Shown piece after piece: positions 30,701 to 63,902 of a stretch of DNA of 64,000 nucleotides; within the stretch, counting starts at the first letter, position 1, and each line of letters opens with the position of its first letter. The notes beneath the pieces are model-generated. The model was given only the letters and a program-made list of their open reading frames with translations. It did no database searches and had not been told where the DNA came from. This DNA is from Mermis nigrescens (Eukaryota > Nematoda > Enoplea > Mermithida > Mermithidae): assembly GCA_036768485.1 (NCBI GenBank), contig JAVLUZ010000772.1:139000-202999 (forward strand), written 5' to 3'. A program made the position numbers and the translations under genes.

Positions 30701-31051
30701 GGTGGAACAGTTGCGCCGCATGTTGCACGTAGCGTTCCTTGGCAAATCTTACACACCATCGCCACGTGAGGCTTTTCCGGAATTCCCGGACTTAACAGCA
30801 CGAATTGAAAGTCCTCATGTTCTGCATAACATGATTAGGCAAATTCGGTTAGCTACCGACCCGCCACTGCAAAGTTCCAGTTCACTCGATCGTTTCAGAG
30901 GTCAGCAGAAATCTGTATTTTACCTCAAACATCAAATCCAAAGGCGAATTAGGAAAAACCCGTCGAGAAAGGCAACAGGCATCCTCGCAGGGGCCGAGGC
31001 GGATCACGCGGCGCAGCCTTGATATGCCAGAAGTCGAGTCTTTCCTTGGAG
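27741..31051 (+). pseudogene. Extra coding-like region downstream of integrase, unrecognised
   Basis: About 3.3 kb of GC-richer DNA carries many frame segments of 60-107 codons that end abruptly and restart in another frame. Examples are 28100-28294, 28517-28729, 28924-29154, 29505-29720, 29915-30232 and 30699-31022. Composition resembles gag and pol here and not the AT-rich surroundings. In most Ty3/Gypsy elements the LTR follows integrase closely, so this is extra cargo: an env-like gene, a captured gene, or remains of another element. I see no signal peptide, furin site or fusion-type transmembrane segment, so I do not call it env. Its last segment becomes strongly basic just before the PLE insertion. 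Confidence 0.45.
31040..31051. repeat. Target duplication, left copy
   Basis: The 12 bases ctttccttggag lie immediately left of the outward-facing PLE 3' end. They recur at 40211-40222 on the far side of the block. Confidence 0.75.
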
Positions 31052-32622
31052 AAAGTGTATTTTTGGCCTATTGGCAGTCACAATAAAAAATAACACAATG
31101 CTTTATTCAAAACCCGTAGGTACAATACAATGTTAAGAATAATACGCTAATGTTTCGACAGTTAACCTGCCATCGTCTGTCCAGGCTCTTACAGAATATA
31201 AGAAGAAGTTGTGGGCACCAGGAATTGAACCTTGCAGCTAAGTATCATTTATTTCTAGAGTCTGTGGTTTTACCAACTGAGCTTCACTGGGCCAGCCGTA
31301 TAGTATTATTTGTTCCTTTTAAAGCAACATAATAATATTTTTAGTCTGGGGCCAGGGCCTACCACATGGTGTATTCTCTCTCACCAGGGCTCTATTCCAT
31401 ATACGACTGATCTCAATACTTTGAACCTGACATTCTGCCCACTAGCCCTCTCCATCTCCCAGGAGTCTCCCGCATTTTTCCTACGGTACCCATTGGCTTT
31501 CTTCATGCGAGTGCTGATGTATGCTCGAAATCTGGTCTACACCCACATGCTATGCAGTGTTCAGCAGCCCCACTCCGCTCCTCTTTCAGATTCACTTAGT
31601 GCACCCCTTATGTTCCCCCAAGTCTTTTCTTAAGACTTCTACCAGTTTCCCCAATGTACTCCTTCCCACATTGTAGTGGTACTTTATATACTATACCCTG
31701 CCGTAGATCTAAGGGTTCCCTCTTTGGAGGCAACACTTTGTAGTCTTTTTCTGATGGTGTCTTCACTCTTCGCCACAAGGCACTCCATATGTGCTTTGCG
31801 CACTCTGCTTAAGCTTCATGGTTAATGCCCCACTAAATGGTACTACTAAGCTGTTGCAATGTAGTTAGCTGCATCACCCCTTGAGGGTGCAAGTTGTAGG
31901 GCTCTCTGTATTAATGTCGGCCAGGGTATCCATTAGCTTGAAAACTCCGTAAGTATTTTCTGATGTTCACCTTCTTTACTGTGATTTGTTTGGCATATGC
32001 TCCTTACATCTCATGGCCATTCCTCGACCATATACCTGCCTTTGTGCATTTCTGATGGTTCGACTGGTAGTTTAGGTGTTGACCAGAAGTGGGTTGGCTT
32101 ACGGTACACTGATGTCTCTAGATGGTCATGGGATCTCTCTAACTGGTACATCCAGGAAAGGCAGTGTGCCTTCCACCTCCTTCTCCATGGTAAACTGAAT
32201 GGCAAGATTTTGGACTATTCATGTGGCCAGGAGGAAAGCTTCTAACTCCCAATCTCTCCATGATCCCACAAGATGAATGTCATCAACGTATCTGAGCCAC
32301 ATTTAGAAGTTTATGGTGCTGTTTGCAGTGCCTGTTTTCAAATCATTCATGAACAGGTTGCATTGTACTTTGGTGACAATGGTGAACCCATTGACATCCC
32401 CCATCTACTTGCTGGTAATAATATTCCCTGCTTAGAGTGAAAATTCTGACACAATATTCCACCATTAGCTTTATAATGACCTCAGCACTCATAGTTGTTC
32501 CTTGTGCTAGGTAATATTCGTCTAAGCAGATTCACAAGACATTCTATGTAGCCAACTGAGCTGGGACACTTAGAAGAGGCTCACATCGTCTAGGCTGTTC
32601 AGTCGTGTATTTCTTCCTGTAC
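31052..32622 (-). pseudogene. 5'-truncated inverted Penelope-like element
   Basis: The stretch is the reverse complement of about 38635-40170. It begins with the pseudo-LTR 3' end (aaagtgtatttttggcc) and continues through the poly-adenylation-like tail, the hammerhead-like core (altered) and the tRNA-like sequence. It then covers the GIY-YIG domain and most of the RT, ending within the RT near 'caggaagaaatacacgactg'. Frame-breaking changes are present throughout, so it is older or less constrained than the plus-strand copy. It lacks the first third of ORF2. Confidence 0.85.
31215..31300 (-). other. tRNA-like sequence in the inverted PLE
   Basis: On the minus strand 'aagctcagttggtaaaacca' (A-box-like) and 'ggttcaattcc' (B-box) are spaced as in a tRNA. 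It is the same sequence as 39943-40022. Confidence 0.55.
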
Positions 32623-33391
32623 TAGCAAAGAAAAAATGCTCCGATGGAACAAAAAAAGATGAATATACTTGGAATTGTGGATTATTATGGATGTAAAAGG
32701 AGGGGACTAGGAAAAATCTACCTAAAGTCGGAAAATCTGCTAAAAATCACACTTTCTCTAAGCAACGCAAAAAATCGATGTATATTCTGCGGCCAACAGA
32801 TTAAAATAAATATTCAACCATAACAATGATTGAAACAGCAGCACGTTAGCTATGCAGTAGCTATGGGAAATGATATTAAGTAAACTAACAGTCTTCCAAG
32901 CCAATTGAATGAAATAGCAAACATCGAAGACAATTGAAGACATGGTTGGTTAAAAACAGTAGGAAACACGTAAGTTGACTTGAAACAGACTTAATGTAGA
33001 TACACTAGCATGCCCGAAACGATTGTGTGCACTAATCAATCGGCTCCTGCTTTGCTTGCTATAATGCTCATAAAACAAAACAACTTTAAATACAATACCT
33101 CTTAGTTTTCTATCAATCAGGTGCCAGCAATTTAAAAAAGTAACCTTGATAGATTTCGTTTATACACTCTTATCTGAAACTTCGAACATTATTTAAAAAA
33201 GACACTTTTTTAGAGGCCGCAGAATATACATCGATTTTTTGCGTTGCTTAGAGAAAGTGTGATTTTTAGCAGATTTTCCGACTTTAGGTAGATTTTTCCT
33301 AGTCCCCTCCTTTTACATCCATAATAATCCACAATTCCAAGTATATTCATCTTTTTTGTTCCATCGGAGCATTTTTCTTTGCTAGTACACT
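32616..33391. mobile_element. TIR element with about 170-bp inverted ends
   Basis: The left arm, about 32618-32795, starts gtactagcaaagaaaaaatg. It is nearly perfectly inverted at about 33217-33390, which ends in tttctttgctagtac. The arms contain 'gctccgatggaac', 'gtggattattatggatg', 'aaaggaggggactagg' and 'ttgcgttgcttagagaaag'. The central 420 bp have no coding potential. It is nonautonomous and well preserved, so probably younger than its surroundings. It marks the break of the inverted PLE. Confidence 0.85.
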
Positions 33392-33889
33392 ACTTTTAAT
33401 TAGCGTGATTTCAGTACATCAGTCAGTAAACACAATCAGTAACATGCCACAATAATGACAACAGTCCAAGAACGCGGAAAACAATATTGTTCTTAACATC
33501 AGCATTATCCTTTTTAAACAAGACAACCTTATTGACACCATCCATTTTCAAATTAAAACTGCATTAAGTTATTTCTTCTTAATGTGCAGTTCACTTATAA
33601 TCAAGCACAAAATTTAACCAACGAATTCACATTGCAAATCCTCACTCAATCAATACACAAGCACAATGTGTTGTGACTTTTGAAATTGAAAACACCCAAT
33701 TTTCAATTTTCAAATTGAAAATTGATCAATTTTCAAATTGAAAATTGGGTCAATTTTCAAATTGAAAATTGGGTGTTTGAATTTGCGATGAAGAAAATAA
33801 TCAAAAGATAGTCACTTGGTTTATTTAAGCCGAGTAATAAAATAACGACCGTCCACCAATTCCAAACTAAACGCAACTAATCTGATCAC
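33392..33889. repeat. AT-rich DNA with an aattgaaaattg palindromic tract
   Basis: At about 33675-33778 the units 'caattttcaaattgaaaatt' repeat four times or so and are self-complementary, forming a small foldback tract. The flanks are featureless. Confidence 0.7.
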
Positions 33890-37173: not shown

Positions 37174-37530
37174 ACACTGGCCCAGTGTATTTTTGGCCAT
37201 TGGCATCACATAAAAATAATAATAATGTTTTTATTCAAACTCGTAGGGTATGCAATGTTAAGAATAATATAGACGCATTGTTAACTACCGCCAGCTGGCC
37301 AGGCTCTACAGAATATAAGGTTCAATTCCTGGTGCCCACAACTTCTTATATTCTGTAAGAGCCTGACGACGACGGTAGGTTAACTGTCAAAACGTTGCGT
37401 ATTATTCTTAACATTGTATTGTACCTACGGGTTTGAATAAAGCATTATTATTATTTTATGTGACTGCCAATAGGCCAAAAATACACTTTCTTTAGATATG
37501 AACCAGTCACAAACATTTAGAAGTCAGTTA
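37174..37530 (+). repeat. 5' pseudo-LTR of the PLE, with an inverted partial copy
   Basis: 37180-37320 is the reverse complement of the PLE 3' end (gtgtatttttggcc, tattcaaactcgtaggg, gcaatgttaagaataat). It is followed directly by a plus-oriented copy (37321-37530) that matches 40013-40210 closely, ending in 'gaaccagtcacaaacattta'. Inverted partial copies next to a direct pseudo-LTR are a known PLE arrangement. The plus copy has the hammerhead-like core with its GAAA changed to AAAA (37390). Confidence 0.8.
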
Positions 37531-37574
37531 TTACGCAGCAGTATGGTCCTGACTTAATTAGAGATCTCCGCAGG

Positions 37575-37832
37575 TTGGATGGCATTGGGGAGAAACTAGC
37601 TCAAGCATCATCAAGTTTAACCCTCCTGATGCAATGTCAGGACCTAGGTATCATACCTACAGGTTTAAACCTTAGAGACCCTATTAACAGCAGGGGTTCA
37701 CAGAGGATACTACAGAGGGCAGGAAGAGCCCTGGTCAGAGAACGAATTAAGCATATGAGGTGGAGGAAGTCTAGTCTACAGGATGCCAAGAAGGCACTGG
37801 AAGGAAGACCTAGAGAGGAATATGACCTATGA
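37575..37832 (+). CDS. PLE ORF1 (85 aa)
   Basis: A small open frame of 85 codons runs just ahead of the RT ORF. It is rich in Arg, Leu and Gln, with a charged helical C-terminal half ('RALVRERIKHMRW'). Its stop tga overlaps the start of ORF2 as ATGA (37829-37832), an arrangement that can allow re-initiation by terminating ribosomes. It may be the N-terminal part of one original ORF separated by a frameshift, since the RT N-terminus of PLEs is usually in the same frame. The frame is open upstream of this ATG to about 37530, so a non-ATG or earlier start is possible. I know no domain for it. Confidence 0.5.
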   Translation: MDGIGEKLAQASSSLTLLMQCQDLGIIPTGLNLRDPINSRGSQRILQRAGRALVRERIKHMRWRKSSLQDAKKALEGRPREEYDL

Positions 37833-39892
37833 CTCATTGGATAAGGATAAAGGGCTCAGTAGATAGATTGTACATAAGACAGCTTGAAATGGTAACACAG
37901 AGACAGAAGGCAAAATTGGATAGACTCATGCCAAGGCAGGGGCAACGGAACCTCAACCTGGATAAGGTGGTAATAAATCAGAGCCATAGACCACTGACTA
38001 ATCATGAGCAGGCTGCCCTGGCAAAAGGCTTAAACTTTGCTATAGCACCAAGTCAACATCCGATTAAGAACATCATAACAGCTATTGAGTGTGCAGCCCA
38101 TTTCCTGCCACAGGAACGGAAGGATGACTTTCGGTTAAAGATTAGACAAGCTATTGACAGGGTTGATAAGCCTAAGGCAAATATCAGCAAGGCAGAGCTT
38201 AGAGCTATTAAAACGCTTAAAGCAGATGACACCATAGTCATTCTGCCAGCAGATAAAGGTCGTGCAGCAGTGGTGATGGACAGAATAGAGTACAACAATA
38301 AGCTGCAGCAGATCATTGATGATCCCTCAAAGTTCAAGGCCATTGGTAAACGCACACCAGTTACCAGGGTAGAGCAAGCATTAAAGAAACTGCTCAAGGA
38401 AGAAGGTCTGGACAAAGAGGTAAAAATCAAAGAAGGCTGCAAAGCACCACATATATATGGTTTGCCGAAGATACACAAACCAGGAGTACCACTTAGACCG
38501 ATTGTCAGTTGCATTGGGACAACTATACATCCTCTGTCAAAATATCTGGTTAAGATACTTAACCCACTACAGCAGAACATTGCCAGCTCACTGAAGAATA
38601 GCAACGACTTTGTGGCTAAGATAGAACCAATGGTAATACAGGAAAATACACGACTAGTCAGCCTAGACGTTGTGAGCCTCTTCACAAGTGTCCCAACTCA
38701 GTTGGCTATAGAATGTGTATTGAATCTGCTTAGACAGGATATTACCCTAGCACAAAGAACAACTATGAGTGCTGAGGTCATTGCCAAACTGGTGGAATAT
38801 TGTGTCAGGAGTACTTACTTTCAGCTTGGGGAATATTATTACCAGCAAGTAGATGGGATGTCAATGGGTTCACCATTGTCACCAGTACTGTGCAACCTGT
38901 TCATGAATGATTTAGAAAAACAGGCACTGCAAACAGCACCATATAAACCTACAATGTGGCTCAGGTACGTTGATGACACATTCATCTTGTGGGATCATGG
39001 AGATCGGGAGTTAGAAGCTTTCCTCCAGCACATGAATAGTCAAAATCTTGCTATTCAGTTTACCATGGAGAAGGAGGTGGAAGGCACACTGCCTTTCCTG
39101 GATGTACTAGTTAAGAGATCCCATGACCATCTAGAGACATCAGTGTACCGTAAGCCAACCCATACAGGTCAATACCTAAACTACCAGTCGAACCATCAGA
39201 AATGCACAAAGGCAGGTATAGTTAGAGGAATGGCCATGAGATGTAGGAGCATATGCCAAACAAATCACAGTAAAGAAGGTGAACATCAGAAAATACTTAA
39301 GGAGTTTCAAGCTAATGGATACCCTGGCCCATTAATACAGAGAGCCCTACAACTTGCACCCTCAAGGGGTGATGCAACTAACTACATTGCAACAGCAGTA
39401 GTACCATTTAGTGGGGCATTAACCATGAAGCTTAAGCGAGTGTGCAAAGCATATGGAGTGCGCCTTGTGGCAAAGAGTGAAGACACCATCAGAAAAAGAC
39501 TACAAAGTGTTGCCCCAAAGAGACCCTTAGATCTACGGCAGGGTATAGTATATAAAGTACCACTACAATGTGGGAAGGAGTACATTGGGGAAACTGGTAG
39601 AAGTCTTAAGAAAAGACTTGGGGAACATAGGAGTGCACTAAGGAATTTGAAAGAGGAACGGAGTGGGGTTGCTGAACACTGCATAGCATGTGGGTGTAGA
39701 CCAGATTTCGAGCATACATCAATACTCGCAGAAGAAAGCAATGGGTACCGTAGGAAAATACGGGAGACCCTGGAGATGGAGAGGGCTAGTGGGCAGAATG
39801 TCGGTTCAAGAAGTATTGAGATCAGTCGTATATGGAATAGAGCCCTATTGAGGAGAATACACCATGTGGAGAGGCCCCTGGCCCCAGACTAA
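37829..39892 (+). CDS. Penelope-like reverse transcriptase with GIY-YIG endonuclease (687 aa)
   Basis: One uninterrupted ORF. The N-terminal PLE region has the 'LTNHEQAALAKGLNFA' type motif (about residues 56-71). 'TIVILPADKGRAAVVMD' sits at about 135-151, followed by 'GLPKIHKPGVPLRPIVS' (211-227). The RT catalytic core follows: first Asp in 'LVSLDVVSLF' (residue 280), 'GMSMGSPLSPVLCNLF' (343-358) and YVDD at 380-383. 'LPFLDVLV' (421-428) matches the PLE thumb. The C-terminal GIY-YIG nuclease spans about 572-670 with 'VYKV' and 'EYIGET' (584-589), then 'RSLKKRLGEH' containing the catalytic-type Arg. Cys and His residues in 'HCIACGC' may bind zinc. The protein would nick chromosomal DNA and prime reverse transcription of its own RNA. 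The lack of stops marks it as much younger than the Gypsy copy around it. Confidence 0.93.
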   Translation: MTHWIRIKGSVDRLYIRQLEMVTQRQKAKLDRLMPRQGQRNLNLDKVVINQSHRPLTNHEQAALAKGLNFAIAPSQHPIKNIITAIECAAHFLPQERKDDFRLKIRQAIDRVDKPKANISKAELRAIKTLKADDTIVILPADKGRAAVVMDRIEYNNKLQQIIDDPSKFKAIGKRTPVTRVEQALKKLLKEEGLDKEVKIKEGCKAPHIYGLPKIHKPGVPLRPIVSCIGTTIHPLSKYLVKILNPLQQNIASSLKNSNDFVAKIEPMVIQENTRLVSLDVVSLFTSVPTQLAIECVLNLLRQDITLAQRTTMSAEVIAKLVEYCVRSTYFQLGEYYYQQVDGMSMGSPLSPVLCNLFMNDLEKQALQTAPYKPTMWLRYVDDTFILWDHGDRELEAFLQHMNSQNLAIQFTMEKEVEGTLPFLDVLVKRSHDHLETSVYRKPTHTGQYLNYQSNHQKCTKAGIVRGMAMRCRSICQTNHSKEGEHQKILKEFQANGYPGPLIQRALQLAPSRGDATNYIATAVVPFSGALTMKLKRVCKAYGVRLVAKSEDTIRKRLQSVAPKRPLDLRQGIVYKVPLQCGKEYIGETGRSLKKRLGEHRSALRNLKEERSGVAEHCIACGCRPDFEHTSILAEESNGYRRKIRETLEMERASGQNVGSRSIEISRIWNRALLRRIHHVERPLAPD

Positions 39893-39942
39893 AAATATTA
39901 TTATGTTACTTTAAAAGGAACAAATAATATTATACAACTGGC

Positions 39943-40022
39943 CCAGTGAAGCTCAGTTGGTAAAACCACAGACTCTAGAAATAAATGATACTTAGCTGTA
40001 AGGTTCAATTCCTGGTGCCCAC
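39943..40022 (+). other. tRNA-like sequence in the PLE 3' pseudo-LTR
   Basis: 'aagctcagttggta' resembles a Pol III A box and 'ggttcaattcc' a B box. The segment ends 'tggtgcccaca', and the start 'ggcccagtg' can only pair with it imperfectly. The same segment sits in the inverted copy at 31215-31300, and its 3' half is in the 5' pseudo-LTR. It could be an internal promoter, a tRNA-derived structural piece, or a chance resemblance. Confidence 0.45.
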
Positions 40023-40045
40023 AACTTCTTATATTCTGTAAGAGC

Positions 40046-40082
40046 CTGACGACGACGGTAGGTTAACTGTCGAAACGTTGCG
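40046..40082 (+). ncRNA. Hammerhead-ribozyme-like core
   Basis: ctgacga (40046-40052) is followed, after one extra base, by a 6-bp stem (gacggt/actgtc, 40054-40071) closing a 6-base loop, then gaaa (40072-40075) and 'acgttgcgta', which can form a minimal helix III. PLEs are known to carry short hammerhead ribozymes in pseudo-LTRs. The extra base after ctgacga and an unclear helix I make function uncertain. Confidence 0.35.
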
Positions 40083-40180
40083 TATTATTCTTAACATTGT
40101 ATTGTACCTACGGGTTTGAATAAAGCATTATTATTATTTTATGTGACTGCCAATAGGCCAAAAATACACTTTCTTTAGAT

Positions 40181-41251
40181 ATGAACCAGTCACAAACATT
40201 TAGAAGTCAGCTTTCCTTGGAGGCACAAATTGAAATGCGTAGAACACGCATGACGATCGAGAAACGCGATCGTGAGAATTTGGCAACGGAAATGCCACGG
40301 CGTGCGACGAAGTTACGCGCCGCCGGTTCTCTTGCTGAGTCTTCAGAAGTTCGTCACATGTCAGAAGACGAACACAAGGCCAAATTGAATCGTTTTTACG
40401 ATACTAAATCCGAGCACACTTTGCGTCGGTTAAAGAATTTGGAGAAACAACGAGTTAGAAGGCTCGTCCAAGCTGAAGTTGCAGCTAAGTTAAAAGCGCG
40501 TTTAGGCCAAAGAGGATCGAGGCGGCAAGACCCGCAGTCATCCCGGCAACGCTACGCACAAACGCATCACCGTTCACAATCGCAAGCACAACCGCAGACA
40601 CAAGTAAAACCACATGTACAGCAATACACAAGACCGCAGACCCAACCGCGGCAACAGCAGCAATTTACGGAATTGCGTGAGCGTTCCGAGGCGTATTCTC
40701 AGGCCGATGCTGGTCATCTGTCGCGCTCGCAACAGCAGCAGCCTTATGAATACCGCCGTCCGCCACAGTCGAACCGCGGAACTCATCGGGGCCGGTCACA
40801 ATCCCGTCAACGACAACAATGGGACCAGTCGTATCGCTCACCGTTGGAACAAAGTCAACCAGCCACCGGGGGCTATCAGCCACAACCTCGACCCGGTCCA
40901 CTTTTGCCAAAACCGTGGCCTGTTACGCAACAACAACAGCGTCCACGCGAACCTTCACGTGATCAATCTTACGGTTTTACGCCGGAGCAATTATTTACTC
41001 CGCCGCCACCTATACCGCGTCGTTACGCGGACGACTACGAGGACGACGACGATTTTGAGGACGACGATCGACCAGTCGATCCACATCGACGCTTACGCCA
41101 ACACATGTACGGGCGTAGGCAATCGCCATATCAGTATCGTGAGCGTTCGAATACGCGTCGCGAACCGGAATCGGATCAGGAATATTTTCAACGTCAAAGA
41201 CGTCGCGGAAAACCGCATGGCTCGAAGGCCAATTATCAGGATCGTTATTAA
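40181..41251 (+). CDS. Gln/Arg-rich open frame of the Gypsy element, 357 codons
   Basis: The ORF starts in PLE sequence, and the Gypsy-derived part runs from 40211. It encodes a charged N-terminal half (about residues 10-110) with many Glu, Arg and Lys and probable coiled-coil or helix character. A long disordered middle follows, dominated by Gln, Arg, Pro and Ser (110-285). Next come an acidic patch of Asp and Glu (about 285-300) and a basic Arg/Tyr-rich tail ending 'KANYQDRY'. I recognise no family. It sits between the extra post-integrase region and the 3' LTR, where an accessory gene would lie. It stays open although gag and pol nearby are badly broken. Its composition recalls RNA-binding nucleocapsid tails. 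Its true start lay left of the PLE insertion (before 31051). Confidence 0.5.
   Translation: MNQSQTFRSQLSLEAQIEMRRTRMTIEKRDRENLATEMPRRATKLRAAGSLAESSEVRHMSEDEHKAKLNRFYDTKSEHTLRRLKNLEKQRVRRLVQAEVAAKLKARLGQRGSRRQDPQSSRQRYAQTHHRSQSQAQPQTQVKPHVQQYTRPQTQPRQQQQFTELRERSEAYSQADAGHLSRSQQQQPYEYRRPPQSNRGTHRGRSQSRQRQQWDQSYRSPLEQSQPATGGYQPQPRPGPLLPKPWPVTQQQQRPREPSRDQSYGFTPEQLFTPPPPIPRRYADDYEDDDDFEDDDRPVDPHRRLRQHMYGRRQSPYQYRERSNTRREPESDQEYFQRQRRRGKPHGSKANYQDRY
40211..40222. repeat. Target duplication, right copy
   Basis: It reads ctttccttggag, identical to 31040-31051. The two copies bracket the whole 9.2-kb PLE block. Confidence 0.75.
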
Positions 41252-47539: not shown

Positions 47540-47810
47540 TTAACGGGGCAGTAATTATTTGCAGTCAACTGCAGGTAATATAGCACACAATGTAAAATCA
47601 TATGCAGTCAAAAAACCAGCGGCCTAGACTGCAGGTAATCTAGCACACAACGTAAAATTATATGCAGTCAAAAATCAGCGGCCTATACTGCAGTTAATAT
47701 AGCACACAACGTAAAATTATATGCAGTCAAAAACCAGCGGACTAGACCGCAGGTGATATAGCACACAATGTAAAATTATGTAAAGTCAAAAACCAGCGAT
47801 ATTTGTACAA
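47540..47810. repeat. Tandem array of about 60-bp units
   Basis: Four units share 'ctgcaggtaatatagcacac', 'aacgtaaaattatatgcagt' and 'caaaaaccagcggcctaga'. The same unit builds the arms of the foldback element at 58653-59577. Confidence 0.9.
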
Positions 47811-52239: not shown

Positions 52240-52800
52240 CAACACCAATTTTGGGGGGACCAAGCCCCAAAAAGGCTAAAAATGGTCCAAAATCACGTTT
52301 AAACAGTCATATTTTTCCGACTTTTTTGGATTTTTTGGGCGTCCAAACAAGTTTTTTATTGTACTCGGCAAAGATTTCTCCCGATGTACAAAGACTTTTC
52401 GAGACCGTCTTCGTACATGTACAAAGATTTTTGGGAAGACAAAACTGTAAGAAGGTGTAAAATTCTCAAAATATTTCGGCGCTTCGCGCTGAAATGAGTA
52501 ATTGTTTGTCCTATATATCTTTAAAATGGCAGAATTTGCTTTTAGAATGGAAGAATGTCAAATTTTTCGGCGCTTCGCGCCCGTTTTGTGAAAATTTTCA
52601 GTAATTTTTGGCGCCAGAAACCCAGAAATTAGCTAAAATACACTATACCAAAGATCGGAAACCCTGTTTTACCGTACTGAAATCGCTACTGTACTATATT
52701 GTAATACACAAAAATTTACATGCAGAAAATGTACAAAGACTTTTGGAGACCATCTTTGTACCCCCCATTCCCCCAGAGATACGTGCCTCGCTGATAATGC
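52240..52800 (+). repeat. Dispersed repeat family D, copy
   Basis: The blocks are 'gatgtacaaagacttttcg', 'accgtcttcgtacatgtaca', 'gaagacaaaactgtaaga', two 'cggcgcttcgcgc' motifs, 'gccagaaacccagaaattag', 'accctgttttaccgtactga' and 'aaaatgtacaaagacttttg'. Other copies lie at about 54850-55260 and 60650-61170, with a degraded one near 4630-4920. Confidence 0.75.
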
Positions 52801-54640: not shown

Positions 54641-55490
54641 TTGGGGAGGGGGTTTCAACCTCCCCCTAAAAAAATTTTCACCTCCCCCCCGCAAAAATTT
54701 TTTTCACCCCCCCAGAATTGGCGATTTTTTGAAAGTTCCCAAGATTTTTCGGAAAATTTTTAGAAAAGATGCCTTCTGAAGCGTTTTTAGCTATCTATTT
54801 CTTCATAATAGCCAAATTTTTGGCGCTTCGCGCTACGGTTTTTTCTGTAGTGGGCAAAGATTTTCCTTGATGTACAAAGACTTTTCAGGACCGTCTCCGT
54901 ACATGTACAAATTTTGGAAAGTCAAAAACTGTAAAAAAGGTGTAAAATTCATAAAAAAATGAATAATTGTTTGTCTTATATATCTTTAAGATGGCAGAAT
55001 TTGCATTTAGAATGGAAAAATGTCGAGTTTTTCTGCGCTTCGCGCCTTTGACACAAGTTTTAGTAATTTTTGGCATCATAAACCCAAAAATTAGCTGAAA
55101 TGCACTACCAAAAGTCGAAAAACCTTGTTTCACCATACTAAAATCGCGAGTGTACCATATTATAGTATACAAAAATTTGCATGCACAAAATGTACAAAGA
55201 CTTTTGGGGACCATCTTTGCACATGTACAAACGGCCCTTATACAAAAAACAAACCTGCTTCGCGCCATTATACTCAGATTTTGACTATATATTGTTCAAT
55301 TTGTTCTGACTTTTTTGATTTTTCATCGAAATTTTATTATGTTTATATGCTTAAGAAAGATTGAGCATCGTCAGAAACGCTGAAAGACGATGTTTTTGAT
55401 GCGTACCTACCATTTTGGACCAAAAAGGCACTTTACACTTTCAACTCCCTCTAGAATTCCCATGCTGTGCATGTATGCTTGGTACTCGTA
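54641..55490 (+). repeat. Families C and D, joined copies
   Basis: A family C start ('cacccccccagaattggcga') runs into family D at 54850 ('gatgtacaaagacttttcag', 'tccgtacatgtaca'). It returns to family C at 55255 ('cttcgcgccattatactcag' to 'gctgtgcatgtatgcttgg'). D therefore appears inserted into C, or the two are parts of one larger element. Confidence 0.7.
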
Positions 55491-58652: not shown

Positions 58653-59577
58653 GTACAGTTCTGGCCAGGAAATTGCGAAATTTGAACAATAAAGAATCGA
58701 TTGAGTTTATTCGGGAACGCTTTTTCACGACCTAATACCGGAGCTTAAAGAGTATCTTGGCATGCTTTATTTCAAGAAAAGCGACCAAAACGCTTAGGTC
58801 GGACCAGACAGTAATTTTTTGCAGTGAAGTGCAAATAAATTTAGCACACAATGTAATATTATTTGAGTCAAAAACCAGCGGCCTAGACTGCAAATAAGAT
58901 TGGACACAGTGCAATATTATTTGCAATCAAAACCAGCAATCTTGACTGTAAATAATATAACACAATGTACTAAATTATTTGCATTTGTTTTTGATTGCAA
59001 ATAATATTGAACTGAGTCCAATTTTATTTGCAGTTTAGGCCGCTGGTTTTGACTGCAAATCATATTACACCGTATCCGATCTTATTTGCAGTCTAGGCCG
59101 CTGGTTTTTTGACTGCAAATAATATTACACCGTATCCGATCTTACATATTTGCAGTCTAGGCCGCTGGTTTTTGACTGCAAATAATATTACATTGTGTGC
59201 TACATTATTTGCAGTTGACTACAAATAATTACTGCCGTCGGACCATTTACATACAACTCAGCGCGCGTCCTTAAATGGATGCTTGATGATAGCGCGCGTG
59301 TGCGCATTATGTACGCAATACCATATGCGTATGAATTGCACGAGCTTAATCAATATTACTATGCTCAACGCGCCCTGTGTCGTGCTTGTTCGACCTAAGC
59401 GTTTAGGTCGCGTTTTCTTTAAATCTAACCAGCGCTTCGCGCTGTTCAGGTCCCGCTTTCTTAATGTAAAGCATATCAGGATACTCGTTTGGTCTGCGGC
59501 GATTAGGTCGTGAAAAAGCGCTCCTAAATAAACTCAATCGGTTTTTTATTGTTCAAATTTCGTGGCGAGCACTGTAC
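58653..59577. mobile_element. Foldback element with 60-bp-unit arms
   Basis: The outer arms start gtacagt and read inward 'cgaaatttgaacaataaa', 'cgattgagtttatt', 'cgctttttcacgacctaat' and 'aacgcttaggtcg'. The right side matches in reverse complement. The inner arms (58800-59240) are inverted arrays of the unit also found at 47540-47810 ('ccagcggcctaga' left, 'tctaggccgctgg' right), meeting near 58980. The right arm has an extra 150 bp (59245-59395) absent from the left. There is no coding potential and no clear target duplication. Confidence 0.8.
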
Positions 59578-61440: not shown

Positions 61441-62225
61441 GCATTTTATTCTTTTCTAAAAAATAAATATTTGATTTGAAAATTTGAAAATCGATAATTG
61501 AAAATTAGAAGATTAAAAGTTAAAATTATTGATTTAAAATTGTTTTTTATTACTTAGTTTTGAGCTAATTTTAGTCATTTTTTAAGGTTTATAATTTAAA
61601 CGGCTTTACACGTCTCTAATTAACATAGTTTTTCCTGTTTTTTCACCGATATTGATGGATTTGAGCACTGACTATTTTTATTGGCACTGAGTCGAGCTAA
61701 AAATGTCATTATTATTGCCAAAAGGTAAATAACTGATTCGGTCTGTGATTGTACTTTGGTAATAATGACATTTTATTTTTCTATAAGCTTATTGTTTGGG
61801 TTTGAGCTAATTTTTAAGAATTTAAAAAAATATCCTACAAAGCAAACGTAGCATGCTCCTAATAAATTAACAGAACAAATGTGGGATTTAGTTTTTTTTG
61901 GAGAGTAAACTTTTTCTCATTAGCTCAGCGAGTTAATTGTATAATAAAGTTTTTTTATGCTAGTTTTTCTACTAATTTTATTAATTTAATTTTGTACGCC
62001 TGCATCTGTATTAAAAAATTTTAAACAATATTTCTACATCTTTTAATTATTCGACTCTTGTTTCATATTTTTTTGGAATAAAAAATAAACTACCATTGAA
62101 GTAGCATTTTTAACAGTAAAACGACGAGCTTCCTGAAATTAACAATTTTTTTATTCTCCATACTTTTTCCTTAATTTTTTCATAAATCTTTGTAATAATT
62201 GACGGATTTGATTTAAAATTGAACT
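61441..62225 (+). other. Intron-like AT-rich DNA with a partial duplication of the exon end
   Basis: 61727-61785 resembles 61405-61460 ('tctgattgt.ctttg.taat', 'gatgacattttattttt'). Both are followed by 'gagctaattttta'. This suggests a tandem duplication that spans the exon end. Confidence 0.5.
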
Positions 62226-62232
62226 AAGTACA
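62226..62232. repeat. Candidate target duplication, left (aagtaca)
   Basis: It reads aagtaca, repeated at 63896-63902 just outside the other end of the foldback element. With one mismatch the match extends to 9 bp. Confidence 0.6.
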
Positions 62233-63895
62233 CGTGTGCGGAAAATTGCTCGCTAACAATTGCTCGAGAACAATTGCTCGCCAACAATTGCTCGCTCCAG
62301 CAATAGCTCGCCCAGCAATTGCTCGCCCAGCTATTGCTCGCCCAGCAATTGCTCGCCCAGCATCGTCACCAGTAATGCCTCGCCTAGCAATTGCTCGCCC
62401 AGCAATTGCTCGCCCAGCAATTGCTCGCCCAGCAATTGCTCGCCCAGCAATTGCTCGCCCAGCAATTGCTCGCCCAGCAATTGCTCGCCCAACAATTGCT
62501 CGCCCAGCAATTGCTCGCCCAGCAATCTGCTCGCCCAGCAATTTCTCGCCCAGCAATTTCTCGCTCAGCAATTGCTCGCCCAGCAATTGCTCGTCCAGCA
62601 ATTGCTCGCCCAGCAATTGCTCGCCCAACAATTGCTCGCTCAGCAATTGCTCGCCAACTATTGTTCGCCAACTATTGCTCGCCTAGCAATTGCTCGCCAA
62701 ATGATTGCTCGACGAACAATTGCTCGCTTAACGATTGCTCGCCAATCACCAACAATTGGTAGCCGAACGATAACTTGCTGAGCTATTGCTCGCCAGTGAA
62801 TTGATCACATGGGAATCGCTCCCTAAGCATTGTTGCTTCTCATTTCTTCGAATCAGCAATTGTCATTCTACTATATTGGAATCATATACGCTATAAAGAT
62901 GGAAGTGCGTTCCTTCCAAAATTCGACCGTTCCCGGATCTTGTAATGATCCGGTCTGAACAAAATATGTGTAATTAAGTACAATTTAGTTCTGCTGTGAT
63001 CGGGAAAATTTCCGACTTGAATTACGTTGCTTCAATGATCAGCTTGTAACTGATCGAACGAATTGATAAAACTTAAATGCATTCTCGACTAATCACAGGT
63101 GATTGGCGAACAATCGCCTGGCGGTGGCGAGCACCTGTCGACTTTATTGAGTGCATTAAAACTGAAAATTAAGATTGAACGAATTAAAATTCATTTTAGT
63201 ACACTAAAAATGAATACTTTCAAACTGAAACTACTGCTTCTTCTCTCTTTCCTACCAAAAACGAAACAATCTGTACATAGAAAAATGTATGAGCGCAAAT
63301 GTATGCAACATCACAGCAGAACTGAATTGTACTTAATTATACCATTTTGTTCACACCGGATGATTACAAGATCCGGGGCGGTCGATTTTTGGAGTTAACA
63401 CACCTTCCATTTTTATAGCGTGATTTCGATATAGAATGACAATTGCTGATTCAAATAAACGAGAAGCAATAATGCCCTGGGAGCGGTCCCCATGTGATCA
63501 ATTCACTGGCGAGCAATTGCTCAGCAAGTAATCGTATGGCTACAATTGCTGGTGATTGGCGAGCAATTGTTTGGCGAGCAATATGCTGGGCGAGCAATTG
63601 CTGGGCGAGCAATTGCTGGGCGAGCAATTGCTGGGCGAGCAATTGCTGGGCGAGCAATTGCTGGGCGAGCAATTGCTGGGCGAGCAATTGCTGGGCGAGC
63701 AATTGCTGGGCGAGCAATTGCTGGGCGAGCAATTGCTGGGCGAGCAATTGCTGGGCGAGCAATTGCTGGGCGAGCAATTGCTGGGCGAGCAATTGCTCGG
63801 CGAGCAATTGCTGGGTGAGCAATTGCTAGGCGCAGCAATTGTTGGCGAGCAATTGTTCTCGAGCAATTGTTGGCGAGCAATTTTCCGGTAATCCC
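62233..63895. mobile_element. Foldback element with 15-bp tandem-repeat arms
   Basis: The left arm (62240-62765) is an array of the 15-mer gctcgcccagcaatt with variants at the outer end. The right arm (63520-63887) is the exact inverse, gctgggcgagcaatt. Inside the arrays the inversion continues through unique DNA. 'ccagtgaattgatcacatgg', 'gaatcagcaattgtcattct', 'ccggatcttgtaat' and 'taattaagtacaatt' on the left all reappear reversed on the right, ending near 63000 and 63310. A central unshared 310 bp remains. Both outer ends read 'ggaaaattgctcgc'. Since 15 is a multiple of 3, the arrays are open in several frames and produce artefactual repeat proteins. Confidence 0.93.
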
Positions 63896-63902
63896 AAGTA
63901 CA

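Follow-up and report, generated by a model that had tools for sequence, protein, structure and literature searches.

A foldback element with 15-bp array arms in Mermis nigrescens, probably a non-autonomous Phantom-type Mutator transposon

We analyzed a 64,000-nucleotide stretch of the Mermis nigrescens genome (contig JAVLUZ010000772.1, positions 139,000 to 202,999; hereafter the window), in which an element of 1661 bp occupies positions 62233-63893. The element has the structure of a foldback, with long inverted arms whose outer domain is internally repeated, mirrored around a 309-bp middle, and its parts are as follows.

62224-62232, + strand: left target site duplication (TSD), CTAAGTACA, 9 bp; across the family, 9-bp duplications with at most one mismatch lie at 28 of 30 distinct sites
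62233-62239, + strand: left tip A1, CGTGTGC, 7 bp, non-inverted, followed by GGA at 62240-62242; the commonest base has a share of 0.87-1.0 per position across 30 sites
62244-62743, + strand: outer domain of the left arm, three 14-bp units and then a 15-bp array of AATTGCTCGCCCAGC, 33.7 copies in all (Tandem Repeats Finder)
62744-63000, + strand: inner, non-repeated domain of the left arm, an 85% inverted match to 63310-63557
63001-63309, no strand assigned: middle domain, no evident coding, hairpin predicted
63310-63557, - strand: inner domain of the right arm, an 85% inverted match to 62744-63000
63558-63882, - strand: outer domain of the right arm, a 15-bp array whose tip units are 14 bp, together 21.7 copies (Tandem Repeats Finder)
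63887-63893, - strand: right tip A2, GATTACC, 7 bp, non-inverted, adjoining GGA at 63884-63886 on the same strand
63894-63902, + strand: right target site duplication, CCAAGTACA, 9 bp, one mismatch against the left

Both arrays have a period of 15, the right-hand unit being the reverse complement of the left-hand one in another phase, and the inner arms match in inverted orientation over 258 columns, which bears out the original prediction of a foldback with 15-bp array arms and about 230 bp of unique inverted DNA inside them. The right array had been credited with at least sixteen near-identical units, a fair estimate (strict consensus units number 14 there and 12 on the left), and the element had been drawn to 63895, which is wrong, the true end being 63893. 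Reading of the sequence revealed a perfect 10-bp palindrome, AGCAATTGCT, within the 15-bp unit. Each unit was originally suggested as a possible protein-binding or hairpin site. At each extreme tip the first three units measure 14 bp and follow in identical order on both sides; the inverted repeat begins at about GGA, and the letters outside GGA are unmatched between the ends. The middle domain has no evident coding capacity, the longest stop-to-stop segment of the 716-bp core consensus being 63 amino acids. When 63060-63170 was folded as DNA, none of 200 shuffles folded as well, and an imperfect hairpin was predicted at 63076-63157, which includes a unit-like stretch, GGCGAACAATCGCC. A protein search with the open frame of the array gave no match at E <= 0.001 among 1733 candidates, the unit patterns, exact and gapped, had no hit in viral_contigs or genome_contigs, and tRNA and Rfam searches of the window came back empty, including the Rfam gathering search, whose scope would take in a histone hairpin provided the library has that family.

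The window holds other repeats. A second foldback-like element spans 58676-59562, with inverted arms at 58676-58779/59562-59457 and, inside it, arrays of 58-bp units in opposite orientation (58830-58955 and 58987-59192); related 59-bp arrays occur at 47568-47798 and at L056 690-1226. At 37316-40210 lies what we read as a Penelope-type retroelement with a 688-aa open frame and direct repeats (37316-37527 and 39999-40210) that are 99.5% identical, and a second, inverted stretch, 91.5% alike, lies at 31050-32627. The window also encodes a retrotransposon-type protease; this protease and a reverse transcriptase that we read as Penelope-type mark its content as eukaryotic. Inverted arms of 177 bp at 32618-33389 are 98.9% alike, 143 bp of them perfectly so, and stand 420 bp apart, with a 24-bp array (33703-33774) about 300 bp beyond.

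Applying the tip rule of the nematode family Tm1, compared below, we read the left junction as CTAAGTACA-CGTGTGC-GGA and the right one, on the other strand, as TGTACTTGG-GATTACC-GGA. The duplication stands apart from the inverted repeat, since a 7-bp tip that is not inverted precedes GGA at each end. The target duplication originally proposed, given as 7 bp or as 9 bp with one mismatch, is real and measures 9 bp with one mismatch; a separate 7-bp duplication at unequal distances from the repeat was rejected, as the 7-bp match lies within the 9-bp one at equal distance on both sides. Among random window pairs, a 9-bp duplication with one mismatch arises with a probability of 2.4e-4 at the preset register and of 3.2% when any offset of 0-14 is permitted on each side. 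On its own the window duplication is therefore weak evidence, and the question is settled by the other copies.

To place the element in its genomic context we searched the whole assembly (523,963,438 bases, 860 contigs). The left 20-mer end occurs at 188 places and the right one at 181 with at most one mismatch, with no hits for the backwards control of the left end or the control of the right. The left and right end consensuses are identical at all positions 7-64 and differ at five of the six preceding letters, and the outermost 34 positions are the most uniform across sites. The agreement at 7-64 is what a recognition site common to both ends would give, with exchange among units as a possible further contribution.

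A first look gave 345 candidate copies, of which 40 were scored (all with E printed as 0) and fetched, the window copy (L048) among them; these 40 rank by likeness to the window copy and hence are no random sample. Both tips, with at most two mismatches per 20-mer, are present in 34 of the 40, so the common end points expected of a transposon family were directly observed and the outcome named as refuting it is absent; set aside in this count were L011, L023, L031, L032, L039 and L045. After removal of four repeats of other sites (L017, L027, L030 and L042), 30 distinct sites were left, 28 of which carry their own 9-bp duplication with at most one mismatch: 19 are exact and nine have one mismatch, while L020 has three and L036 seven. 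L024 (C665:185018-185120) has a pair of A1 ends separated by 83 bp, with an inverted A1 end in between, and an exact duplication when measured from the second; an element here adjoins a fragment of another element's end.

Empty sites were sought by joining the flanks of the 34 copies with one copy of the duplication and comparing them with the available DNA. The joined flanks of L021 aligned unbroken to a pair of dispersed repeats that lie in the window inside 52452-52761 and 54956-55249 (88% and 87%), and the joined flanks of L026 aligned likewise with a repeat located in L083 (86%). These are paralogous empty sites, demonstrating clean insertion. Several further spanning matches had 66-83% identity, alongside self-matches in repeated flanks, and no empty site was found in the genome for the window copy or for L016.

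The 716-bp core has a mean pairwise identity of 94.5% in 31 of the 34 copies (repeats of the same site counted, and L043, L046 and L047 removed by a filter on anchors and length). Within one copy the left and right inner arms are 84.3% alike, whereas between copies the left arms are 94.4% and the right arms 94.7% alike, indicating that the arms are not corrected against each other. Given the core identity and inner arms about 84% alike, the family is not very young. Counted by fifths of the array from outer to inner, strict consensus units number 72, 211, 183, 97 and 10, and this interior crowding fits the pattern that slippage or unequal exchange would leave. The suggestion that the array is young or homogenized was accordingly half right: perfect units do crowd the array interiors, and great youth is not upheld. 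Array lengths at the 28 of 30 sites where they could be measured run from 128 to 642 bp on the left and from 188 to 652 bp on the right, with a left-right correlation of -0.48 from which, the copies having been chosen by likeness to the window copy, we draw no inference. L026 and L027 share the same duplication and have flanks that are 98.2% alike; their left arrays differ by 15 bp and their right arrays by 17 bp.

The original proposal also called for an autonomous relative with the same ends, and a transposase-coding relative with these ends, damaged in the copy read, was found. The PF10551 (MULE) profile matched at 60 of 80 scored genome places. Pairing A1 and A2 in correct orientation within 12 kb, from the first 100 places listed for each end, yielded at least 61 pairs of 610-10115 bp, two ends being used twice among the places listed. 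Two of the 61 listed pairs enclose a PF10551 place, namely C457 810081-819279 (9199 bp) and C192 6294154-6300319 (6166 bp, linked to the transposase by position only), where about 0.015 enclosed PF10551 places would be expected by chance, the pairs covering 131,889 bp. A target duplication of about 9 bp and a MULE transposase domain within the same ends, the marks of a MULE, are therefore both present in the family.

On closer inspection both 20-letter ends of C457 are perfect, its arrays comprise 28.7 and 28.5 copies, and its target duplication matches at 7 of 9 positions. Its MULE pieces score 30.3 bits (L089:4776-5453), above the cut-off of 27.6, and 26.3 bits, below it, and lie on the minus strand, reading toward the A1 end. 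Near the A2 end, four stretches are 88.9-93.7% like the middle and arms of the window element; near A1, one inverted stretch is 77% like it; and the interior holds an A1-like fragment of about 78 bp. Given this fragment and the 7-of-9 duplication, C457 may be rearranged. Its transposase is broken, with open pieces lying apart and a stop inside a stretch that looks FLYWCH-like by eye; Pfam FLYWCH had no match in the three C457 pieces scanned. Among 125 stretches matching a 226-aa piece of this transposase, five loci have at least 74% identity (C457, C192, C245, C73 and C149): C245 has an A2 end 1.4 kb off in the same orientation as C457, C73 has one 3.2 kb off in the orientation opposite to C457, and C149 has no end among the first 100 places listed per pattern. 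The protein database holds 37 relatives of the piece, those named to species being from insects, a mite and a glass sponge; the top-scoring one is 44% identical over 85% of it, and others reach up to 63% over 42%.

Array ends also accompany other MULE loci of this genome. In a paired-array test of 40 such loci (L049-L088, flanks of about 1.5-2.5 kb), inverted 14-16-bp arrays with letters unlike those of the window element flank both sides of eight, L055, L057, L059, L062, L079, L083, L085 and L086, with a unit identity at best rotation of 0.87-1.00; the remainder have an array on one side only, or none. An exact 9-bp repeat lies just outside the arrays, with unlike tips, at four of the six loci inspected (L055, L057, L059 and L062, the register of L062 being unsure by a base), and Pfam FLYWCH was found in 7 of 10 MULE proteins scanned from the genome. 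In a tree of 27 transposase pieces, from 35 matching loci less eight with fewer than 85 columns, the array families F2, F4 and F5 each group as a single clade, as does F3 once two loci where no array was seen are included with it. The transposases of L049, L052 and L087 are among the nearest to the C457 partner (about 50%), and the available flanks of these loci contain no inverted 14-16-bp array; on this showing array ends may have been lost or gained.

The families' units resemble one another more than shuffled units do: with one unit per family at its best rotation, mean similarity on the inward strand is 5.93, above all 100 shuffle means (largest 4.14), and on the opposite strand it is 4.36, likewise above all 100. 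The F1 and F2 units are more alike on the opposite strand (9.0 versus 6.0 inward). Transposase identity and unit similarity are uncorrelated across F1-F6 (rho 0.12, reached by 283 of 720 label orders); with F7 added, rho is 0.54 (350 of 5040 label orders). A loose inward outline (AATT, a C-rich stretch, A..C) stands out most in F3, F4 and F6, appears in part in F1 and F5 and weakly in F2, and is absent from F7; this outline hints, tentatively, at a common origin.

Foldback elements of comparable design occur in other animals. The TU elements of sea urchins have an outer arm of tandem repeats of about 15 bp, an inner unique domain, a variable middle and an 8-bp duplication, the last differing from the 9 bp of the window element. 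The same design is seen in the Mutator/Foldback family Tm1, described from root-knot nematodes by Gross and Williamson (2011, PMC3169594), which has a 9-bp duplication, a non-inverted 7-bp tip, GGA and units of 13-15 bp. The window family shares with it the 9-bp duplications, the asymmetric 7-bp tips outside the inverted repeat, the GGA that follows, the short tandem units, mostly 14 bp in Tm1, and non-autonomous copies alongside a transposase-coding element, of Phantom type in Tm1 and most likely so here (PMC3169594). The two differ in their letters, Tm1 having tips CGGTTAA and CCTACCC and unit CGATTCAGTATCCGC as against CGTGTGC, GATTACC and AATTGCTCGCCCAGC, and in number, Tm1 having 1-9 consecutive units per arm as against about 34 and 22 (PMC3169594). 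The window element thus has the Tm1 architecture of 7-bp tips, GGA and 13-15-bp units and lacks the Tm1 letters of A1, A2, C and D; the GA-rich motif D is absent from it at up to three mismatches.

Phantom MULEs have a MULE domain, often with FLYWCH, and a TSD of 8-10 bp (PMC6446971, PMC3688188, PMC3169594), and aphid members carry a minisatellite after the transposase ORF (PMC6446971). The window family agrees in having a MULE domain within the same ends and a 9-bp TSD, and differs in being new, its 226-aa piece being 44% identical to the top-scoring database protein. Galileo, a P-superfamily element of Drosophila, likewise has tandem repeats inside its long arms, and certain of these repeats have been demonstrated to bind the THAP domain of its transposase; its long terminal inverted repeats (TIRs) hold extra transposase-binding sites in these repeats, and it differs in its P-type transposase (PMC3688188). 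Tetris, a foldback of Drosophila virilis, has arm tandem repeats and 8-10 bp duplications, was assigned by its authors to Mutator, and differs in its TIR-220 repeats; its authors report having found no transposase-coding copy (PMC4079207).

Since a MULE domain lies inside two elements that have these tips, the most likely reading is that the window element derives from a Phantom-type Mutator element and is non-autonomous, and we consider it highly probable that it is a Mutator-superfamily DNA transposon of Phantom type (FLYWCH plus MULE transposase) that moves by cut and paste and has foldback anatomy. The kind is already known; the family and its letters are new. A larger relative sharing the tips would supply a transposase able to bind both the tips and the 14-15-bp repeats and to pair the two ends, and the element would be excised and then inserted at a staggered cut, giving the 9-bp duplication. 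Most likely the element is or was mobilized in trans by a Phantom-type enzyme from the C457 lineage, for as long as that lineage had a functional copy. By analogy with the Galileo arms, the arrays would most likely serve as many weak binding sites that help the enzyme to recognize the true ends, and their length would change by slippage or unequal exchange. Sequence shared in the subterminal and middle regions suggests a probable origin of the family in a larger element that was stripped of its transposase gene, followed by amplification of what was left. Intrastrand foldback pairing of the arms is possible and would not be required.

Several other explanations were weighed against this one. 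That the structure is a satellite, or an inverted duplication made by recombination or assembly with no transposon involved, gains something from arrays that are tandem repeats with perfect units crowding their interior, and is countered by the common ends, the duplications at separate loci and the paralogous empty sites, which refute the satellite reading, rule out an assembly artefact and leave the whole idea with practically no probability. Galileo, with arms that are also long and internally repeated (PMC3688188), makes a P-superfamily element conceivable in place of a MULE. Against this stand the 9-bp duplications and the MULE domain inside the shared tips, where the transposase pieces match MULE with no P-type domain reported among them, and we rejected this identity as very improbable.

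A more serious challenge concerns the arrays themselves, which may have no role in transposition if only the outer 30-60 bp are recognized and the rest are tolerated slippage by-products of palindromic repeats. Array lengths that vary widely, the uniformity of the outermost 34 positions, and three loci (L049, L052 and L087) that stand near the partner yet lack an inverted array in their available flanks all favor such an account, whereas the recurrence of inverted 14-16-bp arrays in several MULE families (eight of 40 loci) and the same design in Tm1 (PMC3169594) speak against it; we regard it as the less probable view, with a substantial chance of being right.

These results place an isolated, unusual inverted repeat in a transposon family with defined ends and a likely type of transposase, and show that foldback-like array ends accompany several related MULE families in the M. 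nigrescens genome. A broader and rather unlikely interpretation, which we offer tentatively, is a clan of Phantom-type MULEs with array ends in which the period is kept at 14-16 bp and the letters vary by family, each array being a putative stack of transposase sites whose spacing would be set by protein packing and whose letters would drift with the FLYWCH reader. Against it, unit similarity does not track transposase identity across F1-F6, and the opposite strand also lies above the shuffles; if true, it would amount to a lock-and-key series inside one genome. One source calls transposase binding by the tandem repeats of Foldback and Phantom arms untested (PMC3688188), and for the question whether these arm repeats bind transposase the M. 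nigrescens families provide a natural series, with the same enzyme clan, a similar period and different letters.
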